Origin: Ruegeria atlantica
GTDB lineage: Bacteria > Pseudomonadota > Alphaproteobacteria > Rhodobacterales > Rhodobacteraceae
Direction: 5' to 3'
Assembly (NCBI RefSeq): GCF_013032505.1
Contig: NZ_WQCG01000003.1
Span: forward strand, 1-64,000
DNA length: 64,000 nucleotides
Of the stretch, positions 3,933 to 45,346 are shown piece by piece. The position numbers were made by a program, and so were the translations under genes. Every line of letters begins with the position of its first letter. Position 1 is the stretch's first letter. Below the pieces are notes generated by a model. It worked only from the letters and a program-made list of their open reading frames with translations, did not search any database and was not told where the DNA came from.

Positions 3933-5996
3933 TTAATAGGCGACGGATGGCAGCCAGGTGGCAAGCGTGGGCCACAGGAAAACAAGCGCCAGCCCGGTCA
4001 ATTGCAGTAAGACAAACGGAATAATGCCCTTGTAGATATGGGTCAGTTTTATCTCGGGCGGGCAGACGCCCTTGAGATAGAACAACGCGAAACCCACAGG
4101 CGGCGTCAGGAAGCTGGTCTGCAGCGTCACCGCCACCAGAATGACGAACCACACCAAGGCTGGTTCATCCAGAACACCGAAACCTGGGATGTCGATGCCC
4201 AGCCCATTTACGATGGGGCGCATCAGGGGCAGCACGATCAGCGTGATCTCGATCCAGTCCAGCACAAAGCCCAGCAGGAAGACAATGAACAGGATGAACA
4301 GGATCGTGCCATTGGCCCCAAACCCGGTGGACTGCACGACATGTTCAATCAACTCATCCCCACCGAGTTCCCGCAGGACATAAGAGAATACCGTCGCTCC
4401 CAGGAAGATCGCAAAGATGTAGGCGGTGGTGTTGAAAGTCGATACCAATACGTTCCAAAGTTTGGCGAACGTCAATTTGCGATACCCCAGCGCCAACAGC
4501 GTCGCGCCCAGCGCACCGATCCCCGAGGCTTCGGTTGGTGTGGTCAGGCCGGCAAAGATTGAACCCAGAACCGCAAGGATCAGCAATAGCGTCGGTATGA
4601 CTGCGATCAGAACGTCCTTCACGGCGGCCCAGTCTGGGGCCGTTGCCCCCTCGGGCACAGGAGCCGCATCGCGCTTCACCATTGCCAGGATGAAGATGTA
4701 AGTCAGGTACAGGCCACCGATGATGACGCCCGGGAAGACCGCAGCCATGAACAGATCGCCCACAGACAAAGCCATCTGGTCTGCCATGATCACCAGCATG
4801 ATTGACGGCGGGATCAGGATACCCAGCGTGCCAGAGGCTGAAACCACCCCAGCGGCCAAGGTGGGCTGATACTTCTGCTGCATCATCGACGGCAGTGACA
4901 GAACGCCCAGCAGCACAACGGAGGCACCGATGATGCCCGTAGAGGCTGCCAGAATGATCCCGATCAGCGTGACCGTGATCGCCAGACCGCCACGCACGGT
5001 GCCAAACAGGCGCTGCATCGAAGACATCAGACGTTCGGCTACCCCGCTTTCGTCCAGCATCAGCCCCATAAAGATGAACATCGGCAACGCCACCAGAACC
5101 GCGTTGGACATGGTCGCATAGACCCGGTTCACCACTGCGCCCAACGTCAGATAGTCGAGCCCGGTAAAGGTGCTCTCAAGCCCTGTCCACAGCATCAGGT
5201 CGTTGTCAAAAAGATAGGCCAGCCCGCAATAGGCGACGCCGACCCCGGCCAGCACCCAGGCCACAGGATATCCTGTAAAAAGCAGCGCAATGAATGTCAG
5301 GAACATTGCGATGACTAGTTTTTCCTCGGTCGTTTCGACCAAAAATGTCAGGCCAACGCAGACAGCTGCGAATACAGCAAGGACCAGCAGAATGCGACGC
5401 AGCGATGCGCCTTCGCGCTCCGATGCCGGTCCGTACATCAACGCGTGCCCATCATGGATCAGCCGCGCCAATGCGGCCAAACCCAGCAGAACGAAACTGA
5501 TCGGAATGACCGCCTTGAATGCCCAACGCGCAGGCAGACCAGTGGGGCTGTCCGAGCGCTCGCTTACGCGGAAGCTTTCGTAGAAATAATCATACCCTTG
5601 GTCGATCATCAGATAGATGAATGGAGTCAGCAGGGTCAGAATGCCGATCACTTCGATCACACGCTGCGCCCGGCGAGAAAGCTGCATGTGCAGGACATCG
5701 ACGCGAACATGGCTGTCCGTGATCAAGGCATAGGAAATGCCGATCATCGTGACGATGCCGTAAAAGTGCCACTGGATCTCGTCCAGTTTGGGATAGTTTT
5801 GGCTGAACAAATAGCGCAGCGAGACCTGACTGAAGATCGCGGCCATCAAAAGGACATTGGCCCACATCACCACGTGCCCGACGGTTTTTACACCAGTATC
5901 AATAGCAACGGCGATTTTTTGGCGGTCAGTTTCGGGGTGCTCCAGGATGCCTTCATAGGCTTCGACCGGATCATTGAGGTTCTTTTGCGTGGCCAT
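3933..5996 (-). CDS. dctQM: TRAP transporter, fused small and large permease (DctQM)
   Basis: A 687-residue integral membrane protein. Residues of about 30-190 are the four-helix DctQ small subunit; from about 205 onward follows the DctM large subunit with roughly 12 hydrophobic segments (for example LPMFIFMGLMLDESGVAERL and the GASVVLLGVLSLPSMM region). It uses an ion gradient to import an organic acid delivered by the periplasmic DctP protein. The start has a GAGGA site 6-7 bases upstream. Location between dctP and lldD-dld points to lactate or a related 2-hydroxy/2-oxo acid. The fusion of Q and M in one chain is a recognised variant. Confidence 0.92.
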   Translation of the reverse strand: MATQKNLNDPVEAYEGILEHPETDRQKIAVAIDTGVKTVGHVVMWANVLLMAAIFSQVSLRYLFSQNYPKLDEIQWHFYGIVTMIGISYALITDSHVRVDVLHMQLSRRAQRVIEVIGILTLLTPFIYLMIDQGYDYFYESFRVSERSDSPTGLPARWAFKAVIPISFVLLGLAALARLIHDGHALMYGPASEREGASLRRILLVLAVFAAVCVGLTFLVETTEEKLVIAMFLTFIALLFTGYPVAWVLAGVGVAYCGLAYLFDNDLMLWTGLESTFTGLDYLTLGAVVNRVYATMSNAVLVALPMFIFMGLMLDESGVAERLMSSMQRLFGTVRGGLAITVTLIGIILAASTGIIGASVVLLGVLSLPSMMQQKYQPTLAAGVVSASGTLGILIPPSIMLVIMADQMALSVGDLFMAAVFPGVIIGGLYLTYIFILAMVKRDAAPVPEGATAPDWAAVKDVLIAVIPTLLLILAVLGSIFAGLTTPTEASGIGALGATLLALGYRKLTFAKLWNVLVSTFNTTAYIFAIFLGATVFSYVLRELGGDELIEHVVQSTGFGANGTILFILFIVFLLGFVLDWIEITLIVLPLMRPIVNGLGIDIPGFGVLDEPALVWFVILVAVTLQTSFLTPPVGFALFYLKGVCPPEIKLTHIYKGIIPFVLLQLTGLALVFLWPTLATWLPSVAY

Positions 5997-36159: not shown

Positions 36160-36354
36160 GTCGCCCTCTTTCTCTTTGCCGATCATCATGCACGGCTGTC
36201 TGCGGGCCGCAATTGCCGAATTTCGACCTCTCGCTGCGTCAGGTCGGGTACAGTTCCGCGCTTGACAGGTCATGCTGCACCTGCCAAATGGATCGAACAA
36301 ACATAACCCGCAACCGGGCGTTCAGTGGGCGCCAAACCGACGAGGAGAGCCGAT

Positions 36355-38313
36355 ATGGCCCTGGACTCACAGTCAGTCTCCCTTACTTTTCCCGACGGCA
36401 ATTCCCGATCCTTTGACGCAGGCGTGACGCCCGCGCAGGTCGCTGCCGATATTTCGACTTCATTGGCCAAAAAGGCGATTTCAGCCACGGTGAACGGCCA
36501 GCACTGGGACCTGCAGTGGCCCATCGATTCTGACGCGCAGATCGCCATCCACACCATGAAGGATGAGGAACAAGCCAACGAACTGATCCGTCACGATCTA
36601 GCCCATGTGATGGCGCGCGCGGTTCAGGAAATCTGGCCCGCAACCAAGGTCACCATCGGCCCCGTTATCGACAACGGCTGGTATTATGATTTCGACCGAG
36701 AGGAACCGTTTACGCCTGAAGATCTCGGCCTCATCGAAAAAAAGATGAAAGAGATCATCAACAAGCGTGATCCTGTCACCACTGAGATCTGGGATCGTCA
36801 GCGGGCGATCGAGTTCTACAAGGCCAATAACGAGCCCTACAAGGTCGAGCTGATCGAGTCCATTCCAGGTGATGAACCGCTGCGGATGTACTGGCACGGC
36901 CACTGGCAGGATCTGTGCCGCGGTCCGCACCTGCAACACACCGGCCAACTGCCGGGCGACGCCTTCAAGCTGATGAGCATTGCTGGCGCCTATTGGCGTG
37001 GCGACAGTTCGCGTGCGATGCTGCAGCGTATTTATGGCGTGGCTTTCACCGGCAAGGAAAAGCTGAAAGCGCACCTGCATATGCTGGAAGAGGCCGCCAA
37101 GCGCGACCACCGAAAGCTGGGCAAGGAAATGGACCTGTTCCACATGCAGGAAGAGGCCCCTGGTCAGATCTTCTGGCATCCGAACGGCTGGAAAATCTAC
37201 ACCACGCTGCAGGACTATATGCGTCGCATGCAGGAGCGGGACGGCTATGTCGAGGTGAACACCCCTCAAGTCGTCGACCGCAAATTGTGGGAAGCCTCCG
37301 GCCATTGGGACAAGTACCAAGAGAACATGTTCATCGTCGAAGTGGACGAGGAGCATGCTCGCGAAAAGGCGATCAACGCACTGAAGCCGATGAACTGCCC
37401 CTGCCACGTGCAGGTGTTCAATCAGGGCCTGAAGTCCTATCGCGACCTGCCCCTGCGCATGGCGGAATTCGGTTCTTGTAACCGCTATGAACCCTCGGGT
37501 GCCCTGCACGGGATCATGCGGGTACGCGGCTTTACTCAGGACGATGGCCACATCTTCTGTGCAGAGGAACAGATCGAATCCGAGACCGCGAAGTTTATTG
37601 CCTTTCTGTCCAAGGTCTATGCAGATTTGGGTTTCCACAATTGGACCATCAAGCTTTCCACCCGTCCAGAGAAACGCATCGGGTCGGACGAAAGCTGGGA
37701 TCTGGTCGAAAAAGCTCTGGGAGATGCCTGCAAAGCTGCTGGGTATGACTACGAGACTCTCGAAGGTGAAGGCGCATTCTATGGTCCAAAGCTGGAGTTT
37801 ACCCTGACCGACGCAATCGGCCGGGACTGGCAGTGCGGCACCCTGCAGGTTGACCCCAACCTTCCCGAGCGTCTGGACGCCAGCTTTATCGGTGCCGATG
37901 GTGCGAAGCACCGTCCGTTCATGCTGCACCGGGCGACCCTGGGCTCGTTCGAACGCTTCATCGGTATCCTGATCGAAGAGCACGCTGGCAAGCTGCCGTT
38001 CTGGCTGGCACCGCGTCAGGTCGTGGTTGCCTCAATTACGTCAGAGGCGGATGATTATGTGCTGGAAGTGGTTGAGACACTCAAAGCTGCAGGCGTGCGC
38101 GCTGAGGCGGATATCCGTAACGAGAAGATCAACTACAAAGTCCGCGAACATTCGGTCGGCAAGGTTCCGGTCATTTTGGCCGTGGGTCATCGCGAAGTAG
38201 ACGAACGTACCGTAAGTGTGCGCCGGCTCGGTGAAAAACAGACGCAGGTTCAATCGCTTGAGGCTGTAACAAAAGAGCTGTCTTTGGCCGCGACCCCACC
38301 CGACCTTCTGTAA
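36355..38313 (+). CDS. thrS: Threonyl-tRNA synthetase
   Basis: A 652-residue class II synthetase. It has an N-terminal TGS domain (about 1-65), an editing domain ([21 protein letters not shown] and later), and a catalytic core with motif 2 [31 protein letters not shown], the zinc Cys in [10 protein letters not shown] and motif 3 [17 protein letters not shown]. The C-terminal anticodon-binding domain starts near 550 ([15 protein letters not shown]). The start MALDSQ follows GAGGAGA; an upstream in-frame start is not favoured. A single essential gene with no partner. Confidence 0.97.
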
Positions 38314-38337: not shown

Positions 38338-38361
38338 TCCGGCCCCATTTTCGGGGCCGGA
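38338..38361 (+). terminator. Probable thrS terminator
   Basis: The arms TCCGGCCCC and GGGGCCGGA form a 9-bp stem around a 6-base loop (ATTTTC), 25 bases after the thrS stop. The T-rich tail begins only after TTGAAACA, so termination strength is uncertain. Confidence 0.6.
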
Positions 38362-38534
38362 TTGAAACATTTTCCATTTTTCATTTCAAAAACAGTCTGT
38401 TAACCTTCAAGGGGGCATTACGCTCTTTGACGGGGTTGTGAGACACGGGCTCGTGAATTCACCTGCCCCGATTAAGCTACTACTTTGTCATTGTCACAAG
38501 AAGACATACGCAGTCATCAAAAGGGATTACCGAG

Positions 38535-38822
38535 ATGTCGAACACAGCAAAAACCCTGGTTATCGCAACCGCAGTTGCCGCAGCCGTTTCTGGTGCAGCG
38601 ACAACCGCTACCGCACAAGCCAAAGAGAAATGCTATGGCGTGTCTAAGGCCGGTCAGAACGACTGTGCCGCAGGCCCCGGCACAACCTGCGCCGGCACCT
38701 CAACCGTTGACTACCAGGGCAACGCCTGGACCTTAGTCGACGCGGGCACCTGCGCCGATATCGAACTGCCGGATAACCGTAAAGGTTCGCTGGAGCCGCT
38801 GGAGCGCGACCTGCCGGCATAA
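38535..38822 (+). CDS. bufA1: DUF2282 bufferin-type RiPP precursor (BufA1)
   Basis: A 95-residue secreted precursor with an N-terminal signal peptide (about residues 1-28, ending TTATAQA) and a core with four cysteines (33, 44, 52, 73) in the DUF2282 pattern [24 protein letters not shown] and AGTCADIEL. In characterised bufferins, core cysteines are converted to thiooxazoles by a DUF692 (MNIO) enzyme and the peptide binds copper in the periplasm. The neighbours bufB, bufC and a DoxX gene give the complete set. A hairpin between bufA and bufB likely makes the precursor message more abundant. Function as copper buffer is inferred from the family. Confidence 0.9.
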
Positions 38823-38847
38823 GCCCAAGCATCTGAGACTCGGAGGG

Positions 38848-38873
38848 GCGGGCCCTATCGCCCGCCTCTTTTC
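38848..38873 (+). terminator. Attenuating hairpin between bufA1 and bufB
   Basis: The 7-bp GGCGGGC/GCCCGCC stem is extended imperfectly outward, has a 6-base loop and is followed by TCTTTTC. Located 25 bases after bufA1 and just before the bufB ribosome site, it fits partial termination that favours precursor over enzymes. Confidence 0.65.
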
Positions 38874-38892
38874 GTGACCGGAGGATTTGTAC

Positions 38893-39750
38893 ATGCTGGA
38901 TAGTTCACTTCGATCAAACAGGCTGCCCGCCGTGCCCGGTGTCGGGTACAAACCCCAGCATTATGACCAGATTCTGGACCATGCCCATCCTGTCGGCTGG
39001 CTTGAGATTCACGCAGAAAACTACATGGGTGATGGCGGCAGGCCGCTTGCGCAATTGCGCCACCTCTCTGAAAAATTTCCCATTTCGGTCCACGGCGTCG
39101 GCCTTTCTATCGGTGGCGAAGGCCCCCTGGATGCCGATCATCTGGCGCGGCTGAAACACCTTGTTGGTTGGTTGAACCCCGCCAGCTTTTCCGAACACTT
39201 GGCATGGTCGACCCACGACAGTCACTTCCTGAACGACCTTCTGCCCCTGCCCTATACAGACGAAACACTGGCCCGCGTCTGTGCGCATATCGACAAGATT
39301 CAGGATACTGTCGGGCGGCAAATGCTGCTGGAAAACCCTTCCAGCTATTTGGCATTTGAGGAAAGCACTTGGTCCGAGCCTGAATTCCTGCGGGAAATCG
39401 CTCGTCGAACAGGATGTGGGCTTTTGCTGGACGTGAACAACGTCTTTGTATCAGCTACAAATCTGAATTTTTCCCCGCAGAGCTATATCGATGCCTACCC
39501 GCTGGACAACGTCCATGAGATCCACCTTGGCGGCCATGACGAGGACGAAGACGACCACGGCCGTCCGTTGCTGATCGACAGCCACGGTCGAGAGGTCGTC
39601 GATCCGGTTTGGGCGTTGCTGGACTACGTGTTAGAGCGTTCCGGCCCAAAACCCGTTCTGATCGAATGGGATACGGATGTACCCGAATGGCACGTTCTTC
39701 GGACCGAAGCTGACCGGGCGCAAGCGGCACTGGACCGCATTCCCGCATGA
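38893..39750 (+). CDS. bufB: DUF692 multinuclear non-haem iron oxidative enzyme (BufB)
   Basis: A 285-residue MNIO (DUF692) enzyme with a TIM-barrel fold and the expected metal ligands: His67 in SVHGVGLSIG, Glu101-His102 in SEHLAW, Glu147/Asn148 in LENPSSY, Asp180 in LLLDVNNV, the His residues in EIHLGGHD, and Glu258 in LIEWD. Family members use two or three iron ions and O2 to rearrange Cys residues of peptides. Its substrate is very probably the DUF2282 peptide upstream. The ATG at 38893 has GGAGGA upstream; a TTG two codons earlier is possible. It overlaps bufC by ATGA. Confidence 0.92.
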   Translation: MLDSSLRSNRLPAVPGVGYKPQHYDQILDHAHPVGWLEIHAENYMGDGGRPLAQLRHLSEKFPISVHGVGLSIGGEGPLDADHLARLKHLVGWLNPASFSEHLAWSTHDSHFLNDLLPLPYTDETLARVCAHIDKIQDTVGRQMLLENPSSYLAFEESTWSEPEFLREIARRTGCGLLLDVNNVFVSATNLNFSPQSYIDAYPLDNVHEIHLGGHDEDEDDHGRPLLIDSHGREVVDPVWALLDYVLERSGPKPVLIEWDTDVPEWHVLRTEADRAQAALDRIPA

Positions 39751-40508
39751 GCGTTTCGCAAACAACATTCCGCGCAGCCCTGCTAGACCCGTCGGCGGTT
39801 GTTCCGGAAGGACTGTGGGATGCCGAGGAACGCCCCGCCGGGCGGCGGTTCAGCGTCTATCGCAACAACGTGGCGGTTTCATTGACCGAAGCGATGCATC
39901 AGGCCTTCCCTGTGATCGCAAAGCTCTTGGGACCGCAAAACATGGACGGGCTTGCCGGGCTTTTCCTGCGCAAACACCCCCCTTCTTCACCATTGATGAT
40001 GTTCTATGGTGAGGAATTTCCCGAGTTTCTTGCAGGGATGGAGCAGCTGTCTCATCTCGGCTACCTCGCTGACGTTGCACATCTGGAACTGGCTTTGCGC
40101 CGATCTTATCACGCGGCGGACAGTCAGGCTGCACCGCCGGATGCGCTGGCCGTCCCACCAGAAGAAATCGTTTTGGCCAAACTGGAGTTTGCGCCCTCCA
40201 TGACGGTTCTTCGTTCGGAATGGCCGCTGTATTCGATCTGGCGATTCAATACCGAAGATGGTGCGCCTAAACCCGCGCCCGGGGCCGAAGACGTCCTGAT
40301 CACCCGGCCCGAATTCGATCCTGCCCCGCATTTGCTGCCAAAAGGCGGAGCGGACTGGATCGCTCGAGTTCAAGCCGGGCTTACCATTGGCGAGGCGTTC
40401 GAAAAAACCTCTGCCGACTTCCCCGAATTTGACCTTGGGGCCACTCTGGCGCTGCTTTTGCAGGGCGGCGCAATAACTTCTGTGACTATCGAAAGGCTGG
40501 CAACATGA
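39747..40508 (+). CDS. bufC: DUF2063 partner protein (BufC)
   Basis: A 253-residue protein with the N-terminal DUF2063 putative DNA-binding-like domain (FRAALLDPSAVVPEGL through FSVYRNNVAVSLTEAMHQAFPVIAKLLG) and a C-terminal domain of about 100 residues. In bufferin and related MNIO clusters this partner recognises the precursor and presents it to the DUF692 enzyme. It overlaps bufB and the DoxX gene by 4 bases on each side, implying a fixed stoichiometry. Confidence 0.9.
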   Translation: MSVSQTTFRAALLDPSAVVPEGLWDAEERPAGRRFSVYRNNVAVSLTEAMHQAFPVIAKLLGPQNMDGLAGLFLRKHPPSSPLMMFYGEEFPEFLAGMEQLSHLGYLADVAHLELALRRSYHAADSQAAPPDALAVPPEEIVLAKLEFAPSMTVLRSEWPLYSIWRFNTEDGAPKPAPGAEDVLITRPEFDPAPHLLPKGGADWIARVQAGLTIGEAFEKTSADFPEFDLGATLALLLQGGAITSVTIERLAT

Positions 40509-41032
40509 CTGCCCTGATCTCATTGCACAACAATACGCTGGGAAGGTTGGAAATGACCTCTGGCTGGTTGACGCCGACCCTGGCGCGACTGGTATTTGCG
40601 GCAACCCTGTTGGTTTACTACTGGAATTCGGCCACGACCAAACTTGGAAGCGGCTTTTTCGGTTTTCTTTTCCCGTCGGACGGGGCTTATGTGCAGATCT
40701 TTCCTAAAGCAATGGAAGCGGTCAGCTATGACAGTTCGCAACTGGGCATCTTCCATTGGGCTATTGCCGTCGCAGGAACATGGGCAGAATTTCTGCTTCC
40801 TGCGTTGATCCTGATCGGGCTTCTGTCGCGGTTTGCCGCATTGGGCATGATCGGTTTCGTCTGGGTCCAGACGATCGTCGACGTCACTGGCCACGGGGCG
40901 GCGCTGGGCAGCTTCTTCACGGCTGCACCCAACGTGCTGGACCAGCGTACGCTTTGGACATTCGTCTTGCTTGTGATCGTCATCAATGGCGCAGGTCCGC
41001 TCTCACTCGACCGAATCCTGCGTATCAAGTGA
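40505..41032 (+). CDS. bufD: DoxX family membrane protein (BufD)
   Basis: A 175-residue membrane protein with four hydrophobic segments (ARLVFAATLLVYYWNS, WAIAVAGTWAEFLLPALILIGL, FAALGMIGFVWVQTIV, TLWTFVLLVIVINGAG) typical of DoxX. DoxX proteins accompany many DUF2282-DUF692-DUF2063 clusters; proposed roles include quinone or thiol redox at the membrane. The TTKLGSGFFGF and HGAALGSFF loops face opposite sides of the membrane in the simplest model. It is last in the operon, with a convergent gene 2 bases away. Confidence 0.87.
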   Translation: MTALISLHNNTLGRLEMTSGWLTPTLARLVFAATLLVYYWNSATTKLGSGFFGFLFPSDGAYVQIFPKAMEAVSYDSSQLGIFHWAIAVAGTWAEFLLPALILIGLLSRFAALGMIGFVWVQTIVDVTGHGAALGSFFTAAPNVLDQRTLWTFVLLVIVINGAGPLSLDRILRIK

Positions 41033-41033
41033 C

Positions 41034-41402
41034 CTAGAAATGTGCCTTGGGCTCGTCCGGTTTTCCCGCGGCCAGCCCAAGGATGCCAGCCACAGCTGCA
41101 AAGGCCACCGGGAACATCGTAAAGACATTGAAACCAAACGCGAAATACATCCCGACCGCTGAAATCAGCAGCAATATCCCACCGATCAGAGCACGCGAAT
41201 GCGCCATTGCGCCGCCTGCGATAGCAAGCAGAGGCGCGATAATGGAAGCGGCCTGAATGAACTGAGCATTGTCCACCTGTTCAGCTAGCCCTTCAATCTC
41301 ACCGTAGTGGTCTATGAATGCGACATAGCCATAGCCAAAAAAACCGACAATCATCCCGATCAGTCCGGCAATGACGCCCAAAATCATTGATGCGTTGCGC
41401 AT
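41034..41402 (-). CDS. Small integral membrane protein of unknown function
   Basis: A 122-residue protein with four predicted membrane helices (ILGVIAGLIGMIVGFFGYGYV, AASIIAPLLAIAGGAMA, LIGGILLLISAVGMYFAFG, MFPVAFAAVAGILGLAAG) and a short soluble loop DHYGEIEGLAEQVDNAQ between the first two. It resembles DUF4064-like small proteins. It is convergent with the DoxX gene and has no partner on its strand. No function can be assigned. Confidence 0.75.
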   Translation of the reverse strand: MRNASMILGVIAGLIGMIVGFFGYGYVAFIDHYGEIEGLAEQVDNAQFIQAASIIAPLLAIAGGAMAHSRALIGGILLLISAVGMYFAFGFNVFTMFPVAFAAVAGILGLAAGKPDEPKAHF

Positions 41403-43497: not shown

Positions 43498-43926
43498 ATG
43501 GGGCTGACATATCTTCACACCATGGTCCGCGTGAAGGATCTGGAGAAGTCGATCGCGTTCTATGAACTGCTGGGCCTGAAGGAAACCCGCCGGTATGACA
43601 GCGAACAGGGCCGGTTTTCGCTGATCTTCATGGCGCCCCCGGGGCAAGAGGATCGGCCTATCGAACTGACGCACAACTGGGACGGCGACGATAGTCTGCC
43701 CAGCGACAGCCGCCATTTCGGGCACTTAGCCTACGGTGTGGATAACATCTACGAAGTTTGTCAGCACCTGCAGGACAACGGCGTCGTTATCAACCGCCCA
43801 CCGCGCGATGGTCGTATGGCGTTTGTTCGGTCTCCGGACAATATCTCAGTCGAACTGCTGCAAAACGGCGAAGCGCTGGCACCAGCTGAACCCTGGGCCA
43901 GCATGGAAAGCACCGGCACCTGGTGA
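43498..43926 (+). CDS. gloA: Lactoylglutathione lyase (glyoxalase I)
   Basis: A 142-residue VOC-fold glyoxalase I: LHTMVRVKDLEKSIAFYELLGLK with the first metal His, PIELTHNWD, FGHLAYGVDNIYEVCQHL with the second His, and SPDNISVELLQ with the terminal metal Glu. It isomerises the methylglyoxal-glutathione hemithioacetal. A GGAAG site precedes the start. The stop overlaps the GTG of the first DUF1194 gene (GTGA), an unusual partner for gloA. Confidence 0.92.
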   Translation: MGLTYLHTMVRVKDLEKSIAFYELLGLKETRRYDSEQGRFSLIFMAPPGQEDRPIELTHNWDGDDSLPSDSRHFGHLAYGVDNIYEVCQHLQDNGVVINRPPRDGRMAFVRSPDNISVELLQNGEALAPAEPWASMESTGTW

Positions 43927-44627
43927 TCCGCTGGCTGATAGCACTGGGTCTGGCCGTTCTGGCCAGCCCCCTACGGGCCGAGACTTGCCGGCTTGCACTA
44001 GCGCTCGCCATGGATATCTCGACCTCCGTGGACGAGAACGAAGACGTTTTGCAGCGGCAGGGTCTGGCGGCTGCATTGATCGCGCCGGAAGTGGTCGAGG
44101 CGTTTTTTTCCTCGCCCGCACCGGTTGCGCTGGCCGTGTATGAGTGGAGCGGTCGCACCACCCAACGCGTTATTCTGAACTGGACTATGATCAACACTGA
44201 GACCGATCTGTTGGTCGCAGCCTCAACAGTGCAACAATCTGTTCGTTCGGATAGCGGCTCGGCCACGGCAATGGGCTATGCCTTGGCATTTGGCGCGACC
44301 TTGATGCAGCAAGCACCGCCCTGCCTGTTCAACACCATTGATCTGTCAGGGGATGGCTCAAACAATGATGGCTACGGGCCGGACTCGGCGTACCGGCACT
44401 TTCCCTTCCAAAACGTCGTCGTCAACGGGTTGGTAATCAATGCTGCTGATTTTGAAGGCGAACTGTTCCTTATCCCGTTTTTCGAAAACAACGTTCTCCA
44501 CGGCCCAGGCGCGTTTCTCGAGATTGCGCAAGGGTTCGATGATTTTGAACGCGCGATGCGTCGCAAGCTGGAACGGGAATTGAAAGGTCTGCAGATCGGC
44601 GTTTTGCAGGATGATGCGCACCGATGA
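43923..44627 (+). CDS. DUF1194 (VWA-like) exported protein, copy A
   Basis: A 234-residue exported protein: signal peptide (residues 1-19, ending PLRA) and a von Willebrand A-like domain with a MIDAS-type DISTSVD (DxSxS), GSATAMGYALAFGATLM and DLSGDGSNN. DUF1194 proteins are frequent in Rhodobacterales and have no established function; metal-dependent protein binding in the periplasm is likely. It starts with GTG overlapping gloA and ends overlapping its paralogue (ATGA), so the three genes are coupled. Confidence 0.8.
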   Translation: MIRWLIALGLAVLASPLRAETCRLALALAMDISTSVDENEDVLQRQGLAAALIAPEVVEAFFSSPAPVALAVYEWSGRTTQRVILNWTMINTETDLLVAASTVQQSVRSDSGSATAMGYALAFGATLMQQAPPCLFNTIDLSGDGSNNDGYGPDSAYRHFPFQNVVVNGLVINAADFEGELFLIPFFENNVLHGPGAFLEIAQGFDDFERAMRRKLERELKGLQIGVLQDDAHR

Positions 44628-45346
44628 TCCGTCTCCTGTCTACCGTTTTTACCCTACTGGCCTGCCCTGTCGCATCGGAATGCAGGCAAGCGCTAGCTTT
44701 GGGCCTGGATGTGTCCGGTTCCGTCGACAGCCGCGAGTATAGGCTGCAAACCGGCGGTCTGGCTGCCGCACTACGACGCCCCGAGGTTGTTCAATTGATC
44801 CTGTCAGACGTTGGCGCGCCCATACGGCTGGCGATCTTCGAATGGAGCGAAACCCGCCATCAGCGAATGTTGGTTAACTGGACCGAGATTCGCAGGAACC
44901 AAGACCTCGAAGAGATCAGCGGCCTTTTGAAAAAGGCCGAGCGCAGTAACGCACCACAAGGCACGGCCGTCGGTTCGGCAATGCAGTTCGGAGCAGATCT
45001 GCTGTCGCAGCAACCGAATTGCTGGAAACGCACACTGGATCTGTCCGGGGACGGGAAGCACAATCTGGGTCCGCACCCGCGCCGCGTGAAGGCGGAGCTT
45101 CTGGGTACCGGCATCACGATCAACGGGCTGGTGATCGGGGCCGACGATCCCAGCCATGGCGACAAACGGTATGTCCAGGTTGGTGAGCTTTCCGCCTACT
45201 ACAACACTTGGGTGATCCTGGGGCCCGGTGCATTCGTCGAAGTGGCTTTGGGCTTTGAAGCCTATGAAGACGCGATGACCCGAAAACTGGTACGCGAGTT
45301 GGAGGGCTTAACCCTATCCGACGCCACAGATATCCTGCACCCATGA
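44624..45346 (+). CDS. DUF1194 (VWA-like) exported protein, copy B
   Basis: A 240-residue paralogue of the preceding gene: signal peptide (ending PVASE), MIDAS-type DVSGSVD, APIRLAIFEWSETRHQRMLVNWTEI (the counterpart of the YEWSGRTTQRVILNWTMI region in copy A), GTAVGSAMQFGADLL and DLSGDGKHNLG. The two share the same motif order at moderate identity, so the tandem duplication is old. They may form a heterodimer. The gene ends directly against the convergent marR-family gene. Confidence 0.8.
   Translation: MIRLLSTVFTLLACPVASECRQALALGLDVSGSVDSREYRLQTGGLAAALRRPEVVQLILSDVGAPIRLAIFEWSETRHQRMLVNWTEIRRNQDLEEISGLLKKAERSNAPQGTAVGSAMQFGADLLSQQPNCWKRTLDLSGDGKHNLGPHPRRVKAELLGTGITINGLVIGADDPSHGDKRYVQVGELSAYYNTWVILGPGAFVEVALGFEAYEDAMTRKLVRELEGLTLSDATDILHP

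Follow-up and report, generated by a model that had tools for sequence, protein, structure and literature searches.

What switches on a bufferin operon in a roseobacter? The question is raised by positions 38535-41032 of the window, that is, of the whole 64,000-nucleotide stretch of Ruegeria atlantica DNA analysed here. Judged by their sequences, the four genes at this place form a Buf1 bufferin operon, bufA1-bufB-bufC-bufD, in a Ruegeria-like roseobacter, which confirms a sequence-only reading that had described the locus as a complete copper-peptide cluster. What that reading missed is that the operon is without the extracytoplasmic function (ECF) sigma-F/NrsF control of the Caulobacter type and has another conserved operator. 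We consider it likely that this Buf1 operon is not under sigma-F/NrsF and is driven, via a doubled box upstream of bufA, by a putative activator.

The operator emerged from a de novo motif analysis of the upstream regions of bufA in the window and in 60 family genomes. These 60 buf loci form our first locus set, taken from 211 DUF2282-positive family genomes, and are mostly high-scoring with enough flanking sequence. The analysis returned a 32-bp motif, T-N-ACG-N4-CGTGA-NN-CACGG-N3-YGTGA-N-T, with a log-likelihood of 699, compared to 125, 137 and 142 in three shuffles, which were run with 15 restarts as against 40 for the real upstreams. Taking a motif score of at least 14 as the cut-off for a doubled box, 44 of the 61 upstreams carry one. 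The window's copy, at 38428-38458 and thus 77-107 nucleotides ahead of the start codon, scores 24.0 (23.7 under a slightly different background). Our second set holds 80 named loci, of which 78 have upstream sequence and 65 score at least 14; four named loci (L164, L190, L215 and L218) are identical to first-set loci, and the count is 61/74 without them. Many of the named loci are closely related and are not independent events. When both strands of the named loci (1.65 Mb) were scanned, every motif match lay upstream of bufA and none elsewhere, and shuffled upstreams gave 0 matches in 1560. Across 104 distinct doubled-box loci, an outer half-site T-N-A-C is also recognizable, with T in 76%, A in 67% and C in 78%.

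The box stands at a fixed distance from a promoter-like element. TAnnnT is found at offset 53 or 54 from the operator start in 28 of the 44 scoring first-set loci, where any other distance occurs at most once, and in 48 of the 65 scoring named loci, where other distances occur at most twice each. We read the promoter as a -10-like TAnnnT without a good -35 element, preceded by two 14-bp boxes in tandem, with centres near -59 and -44, and with a transcription start that probably lies near 38493. The palindromic form of the boxes, the lack of pairing-preserving changes, the fixed distance to the -10-like element and the missing -35 together fit a DNA-binding activator. The doubled box is thus probably the site of a putative transcription activator that would serve mainly this operon.

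The distribution of the box in whole genomes is similarly narrow. We searched the window genome, a 5.1-Mb draft in 32 contigs, for DUF2282, MNIO, NrsF, sigma-F and the operator pattern. The full pattern has a single match without mismatches there, at bufA, and the two matches with three mismatches are fewer than the five of a reversed control. Among the genomes of 18 relatives, 15 match at up to two mismatches, all 15 upstream of bufA; the two stray matches are the other strand of the same place (G106) and a two-mismatch site elsewhere (G187). Of 20 genomes of the family that lack a DUF2282 match, 3 have a two-mismatch doubled box, as compared to 2 (3 matches) for the reversed control, which is chance level. 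The single box, TCACG-N4-CGTGA, occurs at two places in the window genome versus three for the reversed control and is uninformative as a regulon marker. We also considered whether the doubled box is due to linkage with thrS, the upstream neighbour, and rejected this: L060 (23.0) and L063 (16.1) have the box without thrS nearby, and L047, L049 and L074 have sigma-F promoters in spite of their linkage to thrS.

The control known from Caulobacter was not found in the window genome, which has no NrsF match at E 0.001 and no close sigma-F homologue (four matches at 24-28% identity, the best with 27.8 bits). We compared NrsF with the doubled box in 110 other genomes, 60 from the first set and 50 from the named set, using a cut-off of 26.8 bits for NrsF and counting sub-threshold matches as absence. 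NrsF exceeds the cut-off in 21 of them (14/60 and 7/50), and none of these 21 has a doubled box. In contrast, the box is present in 81 of the 89 genomes without NrsF above the cut-off (43/46 in the first set, 38/43 in the named set). The inverse relation is strong in counts and is not statistically secured against shared descent.

The 14 first-set NrsF loci have GTAAC-N16-CGAA-type promoters instead (8-10 of 10 letters, spacers of 15-17), and scores of 7-9 letters also arise by chance in other loci. We rejected the idea that these operons share a sigma-F promoter as their control, as the properly scored pattern marks NrsF genomes. Twelve of these 14 loci have at least one TCAC-N6-GTGA box (7-8 of 8 letters) within 40 bp upstream of the sigma-F promoter, as compared to a mean of 0.26 and a maximum of 4/14 in 500 shuffles, and 10 of these 12 boxes begin 18-20 bp before the -35. 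Outside the family, judged by eye, boxes stand beside sigma-F promoters in L121 and L122 and look doubled in L130, L134 and L143. The genes sigF-nrsF lie between thrS and bufA in L049 and in the named loci L201, L213, L214, L219, L228 and L234, so the window's arrangement could arise by loss of sigF-nrsF.

Several observations weigh against control by a putative activator in place of sigma-F/NrsF. The near-uniqueness of the doubled box marks a site, not its binder. A GTAAC[CG]-N16-CGAA promoter was not found ahead of bufA, and the best candidate is a sigma-F-like match of 9/10 letters with a 17-bp spacer at -225; the GTAACATT of this match coincides with the stop region of thrS, and only 7-8 letters match in 8 of 10 Ruegeria loci. 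Eight of the 89 genomes (those of L068, L077, L091, L194, L222, L225, L226 and L236) have neither NrsF nor a scoring box; by eye, L068, L091 and L236 have box-like repeats at other spacing. Two of the 81 doubled-box genomes counted as without NrsF contain weak NrsF matches, namely L069 (G228; 21.5 bits, E 3.8e-4) and L238 (G629; 20.8 bits, E 5.4e-4). Independent switches are few: there are four well-supported contrasts, of which three are informative, all of them inverse, giving a sign test p of 0.25. The bufD product falls just short of the Pfam cut-off for DoxX (23.4 bits against 23.6). The chemistry, export and copper binding are carried over from relatives. Finally, a sequence resembling the site of the Caulobacter response regulator UzcR, CATTAC-N6-TGAC at 38416-38431 with 8/10 letters, overlaps the operator.

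The small number of contrasts would suit the view that the inverse relation is without functional meaning and merely reflects common ancestry within a few clades, as would the fact that 10 of the 14 first-set NrsF rows are one clade. A BufB tree of 109 rows shows 9 changes for NrsF and 12 for the doubled box. All informative contrasts nevertheless agree in direction, the doubled-box rows L040, L043, L052 and L061 have the NrsF rows L047, L049 and L074 in their midst, and L233, at first an apparent exception, carries NrsF. We give shared descent as the whole explanation a small though appreciable chance. It is also conceivable that in this lineage the peptide serves less against copper than against a different stress (gold, silver, other metals or oxidants), a suggestion to which we would assign a low but real probability. 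The sigma-F control that is missing in the window genome belongs to a regulon that also answers chromate and cadmium (PMC3511200, PMC8224329), and gig operons respond to gold (PMC12452194, PMC8224329). However, copper binding by Caulobacter Buf1 and growth under copper stress have been reported (PMC12452194).

The nature of the factor that reads the site can be argued in other ways. A CGTGA-type element could serve as the -35 and TAnnnT as the -10 of an alternative sigma factor, in keeping with the fixed distance between box and TAnnnT. The box is, however, palindromic and doubled, and in the 12 NrsF loci described above and in L121 and L122 it lies upstream of a separate sigma-F -35/-10, which would be unexpected for a -35, making this quite unlikely. 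That the conserved stretch acts as RNA, as a leader or riboswitch, is very improbable. It is palindromic and precedes the start codon by 77-107 nucleotides, but changes across the 104 distinct loci break the pairing (for example, G-G in 50/104 at one pair), and the -10-like element lies downstream, so that transcripts begun there would not include the stretch. We rejected an RNA structure because pairing is not preserved. A more substantial proposal, which we still regard as unlikely, is a known metal-responsive response regulator of the UzcR kind that has many targets, so that nothing but the doubling of the site would be particular to bufA. UzcR responds to uranium, zinc and copper, and the left part of the operator is a 10-bp direct repeat of T-N-A-C, the format of CATTAC-N6-TTAA, which was found in 44 of 57 Caulobacter UzcR regions (PMC8963506). 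Matches of at least 8 letters, however, occur in 9 of the 104 doubled-box loci versus 6.4% of shuffles, with none of at least 9, and the window contains 15 such matches against a chance mean of 23.5. Nothing in the UzcR site corresponds to the palindromic right part of the operator, and the window's match lies farther upstream (about -77 to -62 from the presumed start) than -43/-53. Because the UzcR site shares the half-site format and the 8/10 match, it slightly lowers the odds of a dedicated new regulator. By eye, no recurring regulator gene was seen beside the operons in rough gene calls for 13 family loci and 14 other-family loci, and literature searches showed no paper on bufferin control in roseobacters among the matches listed. 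We retain the putative activator acting at the doubled box as the preferred reading, on the strength of the operator's form and its spacing to the -10-like element.

The peptide machinery downstream of this operator agrees in family membership, gene order, cysteine pattern and partner fold with the bufferin interpretation, which is thereby supported. All four reading frames are open and lie on the plus strand in the order that had been proposed. Profile hidden Markov model searches returned the expected families for the precursor (DUF2282, PF10048, E 4.1e-25), the enzyme (MbnB_TglH_ChrH, formerly DUF692, PF05114, E 5.2e-106) and the partner (DUF2063, PF09836, E 1.9e-24). The proposed DoxX protein matches PF07681 with E 9.2e-5, at the score just below the cut-off given above, and it reaches 22.3 bits against a cut-off of 80 for the HvfX family of NCBIfam. 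DoxX proteins are frequent, not obligatory, in Buf1 clusters. The ATGA overlaps claimed for the cluster exist between bufB and bufC (39747) and between bufC and bufD (40505), whereas bufA and bufB are separated by a 70-bp gap. The coordinates are collected in the table.

Table. The bufferin operon of the window, its control region and its neighbours.
Feature	Position	Strand	Evidence or remark
Outer half-site TTACG, 10 bp ahead of box 1	38418..38422	+	T-N-A-C at offsets -10 to -7
Operator box 1, T-N-ACG-N4-YGTGA	38428..38441	+	0 mismatches to the family pattern
Operator box 2, CACG-N4-YGTGA, 15 bp on from box 1	38443..38456	+	Overlaps or abuts the expected -35 region
-10-like TACTTT	38481..38486	+	53 bp from the operator start
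bufA1, DUF2282 bufferin precursor, 95 amino acids	38535..38822	+	PF10048; Cys33/44/52/73
G+C-rich hairpin, then TCTTTT; possible partial terminator or 3' end stabiliser	38841..38872	+	Stem conservation
bufB, MNIO enzyme, 285 amino acids from ATG 38893	38893..39750	+	PF05114; NF050167; ligands
bufC, DUF2063 and RRE-like partner	39747..40508	+	PF09836; AlphaFold model; structure matches
bufD, DoxX-like membrane protein	40505..41032	+	PF07681 just below the cut-off
thrS, neighbour outside the system	36325..38313	+	Precedes buf, with the same orientation, in 45/60 family loci fetched
122-amino-acid membrane-like protein	41034..41402	-	Convergent to bufD; recurs beside bufD in many relatives

The precursor has the four core cysteines that had been noted, at 33, 44, 52 and 73, with 44 and 52 as the central pair, and their spacing is identical in all 61 precursors compared, the window's own included. 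By eye its N-terminus is signal-peptide-like, with Lys near the start, an Ala-rich core and AQA ahead of the mature part. The enzyme belongs to the NCBIfam family MNIO_BufB (NF050167; 381.9 bits, cut-off 310), and its score of 233.5 bits against the HvfB family is below the cut-off of 360. Its start is likely ATG 38893, behind GGAGG at 38880-38884, rather than the TTG at 38887 of a mechanical open reading frame list. The metal ligands are intact at the sequence level, as had been claimed: the likely metal-site residues H102, E147, D180, N183, H211, D229, H231 and E258 are invariant in 9/9 aligned MNIOs. Using 3BWW for a numbering match made in this analysis, N183, D229 and H231 correspond to the site-3 residues of HvfB, where the N, D and H were shown to be essential (PMC13419390).

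Sequence searches of BufC and BufA against solved structures gave nothing useful. An AlphaFold model of BufC, built from 42 sequences, has a mean predicted local distance difference test (pLDDT) score of 94.3. Among solved structures it resembles most closely NGO1945 (3dee; Z 13.8, residues 35-248) and TglI (8hci_A; Z 13.1), both of them partner-type proteins. The C-terminal part alone resembles recognition element (RRE) proteins of lasso-peptide pathways (6jx3, 5v1u) with Z about 6, which is weak by itself. The predicted fold fits the PME1 partner of bufferins (PMC12452194).

The window genome has one DUF2282 match and one MNIO match. The nearest named loci are from Ruegeria, with BufB at 94% in Ruegeria sp. 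Alg231-54. As a peptide system the cluster is an ordinary member, since 211 of the family's 295 genomes have a DUF2282 gene and the counterpart in Caulobacter is already known as copper-induced and sigma-F-dependent.

The gap between bufA and bufB contains a conserved hairpin. In 123 of 133 distinct loci, the 60 nucleotides that follow bufA include an uninterrupted stem of at least 8 bp, compared to 37.4 expected from shuffles, and a hairpin with a T-run follows bufA in 56 of 138 loci versus 5 in one shuffle. A terminator-like scan of the window alone found 1 against a shuffle mean of 3.8, which is not above chance. The hairpin may be a partial terminator, giving more precursor than enzyme. 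Tandem pairs of bufA before a single bufB were seen in L068 (4903-5536) and L070 (reversed, 4976-5693).

Since thrS precedes buf in most of the fetched loci, with both genes in the same orientation, this location is old. A hairpin seen by eye after thrS, CCGGCCCC...GGGGCCGG at 38338-38359, suggests a thrS transcript end; it is absent from the terminator-scan output. The 122-amino-acid protein on the other side of the operon had no Pfam or NCBIfam match, and sits between thrS and bufA instead in L078, L237 and L238. L225, L226 and L236 have no NrsF, no strong sigma-F promoter and no scoring doubled box. In two of the exceptions without NrsF, L077 and L091, the operon is divergent from what we take to be nuo-like genes, in place of thrS. 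In 5 of 14 other-family loci (L145, L148, L149, L150 and L155), buf lies, on the side upstream of bufA, beside a large minus-strand gene, presumably gltB-like (glutamate synthase), which makes this a second recurrent location. Elsewhere in the window, two similar, secreted-looking proteins are adjacent in tandem at 43923-45346 (+).

Taken together, a working model can be proposed, in which the chemistry, export and copper binding are taken over by analogy with relatives. The putative activator, bound at the two boxes, would switch on the bufA promoter that has no good -35, and the hairpin after bufA would keep the precursor in excess over the enzyme. BufC, as an RRE-type partner, would present the BufA precursor to BufB, a multi-iron MNIO, which would convert the central Cys44 and Cys52 into thiooxazoles, while Cys33 and Cys73 might close a disulphide. 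The Sec signal would send the product to the periplasm, where it may bind excess copper, and BufD would be an accessory membrane protein. The copper role in this organism is a probable one, carried over from relatives such as Caulobacter, and copper sensing by the regulator is a guess based on what the operon does.

We can offer a tentative scenario that we find plausible without quite favouring it. Roseobacters may have a dedicated and hitherto undescribed metal-responsive activator whose box already stood beside sigma-F promoters; where sigma-F/NrsF was lost, the box would have doubled and a housekeeping-type promoter taken over, more than once, leaving a regulon of about one operon per genome. 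NrsF above the cut-off is absent from 89 of the 110 bufA1-bearing genomes and from the window's own, and the switch of this prevailing form is a sharply defined, testable gap. As the 32-bp site has a single full match in the window genome, its regulator is directly findable, and the mixed lineages provide a natural case of a stress operon that has exchanged its control and kept its peptide machinery.

Known systems resemble this locus in different respects. UzcR sites of Caulobacter have, like the left part of the operator, the format of a 10-bp direct repeat, and represent a copper-responsive activator site near -43/-53 (PMC8963506). Their letter pattern is, however, not conserved among the 104 doubled-box loci, whereas the doubled box has its one full match in the window genome. 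Oxazolin/Hvf, fontiphorin and other captophorins share an MNIO with a PME1 partner, 5-thiooxazoles and copper with the system described here (PMC13097082). They differ in having EGKCG precursors, whereas the window's precursor is a DUF2282 protein with four cysteines and no EGKCG repeats. Closer are the sigma-F/NrsF-type operons of the family itself (for example, L049, L201, L219 and L228), which have the same operon in the same place behind thrS; unlike the window, they have a divergent sigF-nrsF between thrS and bufA and the promoter GTAAC-N16-CGAA. The Buf1 operon of Caulobacter, CC3254-CC3257 (CCNA_03363-03366), comprises DUF2282, DUF692, DUF2063 and DoxX genes and is sigma-F-dependent (PMC3511200), thus having the same four genes in the same order as the window (PMC3511200, PMC8224329). 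It is in the core set induced by copper in both media and cell types, with doxX in one of four conditions induced only without a fold-change cut-off, and the sigF mutant is copper-sensitive (PMC8224329). That operon is controlled by sigma-F/NrsF with GTAACC-N16-CGAA, a promoter known here from these papers, whereas the window has the doubled box and no such promoter near the presumed start. The peptide machinery is of a known kind, and the variation is in its control.

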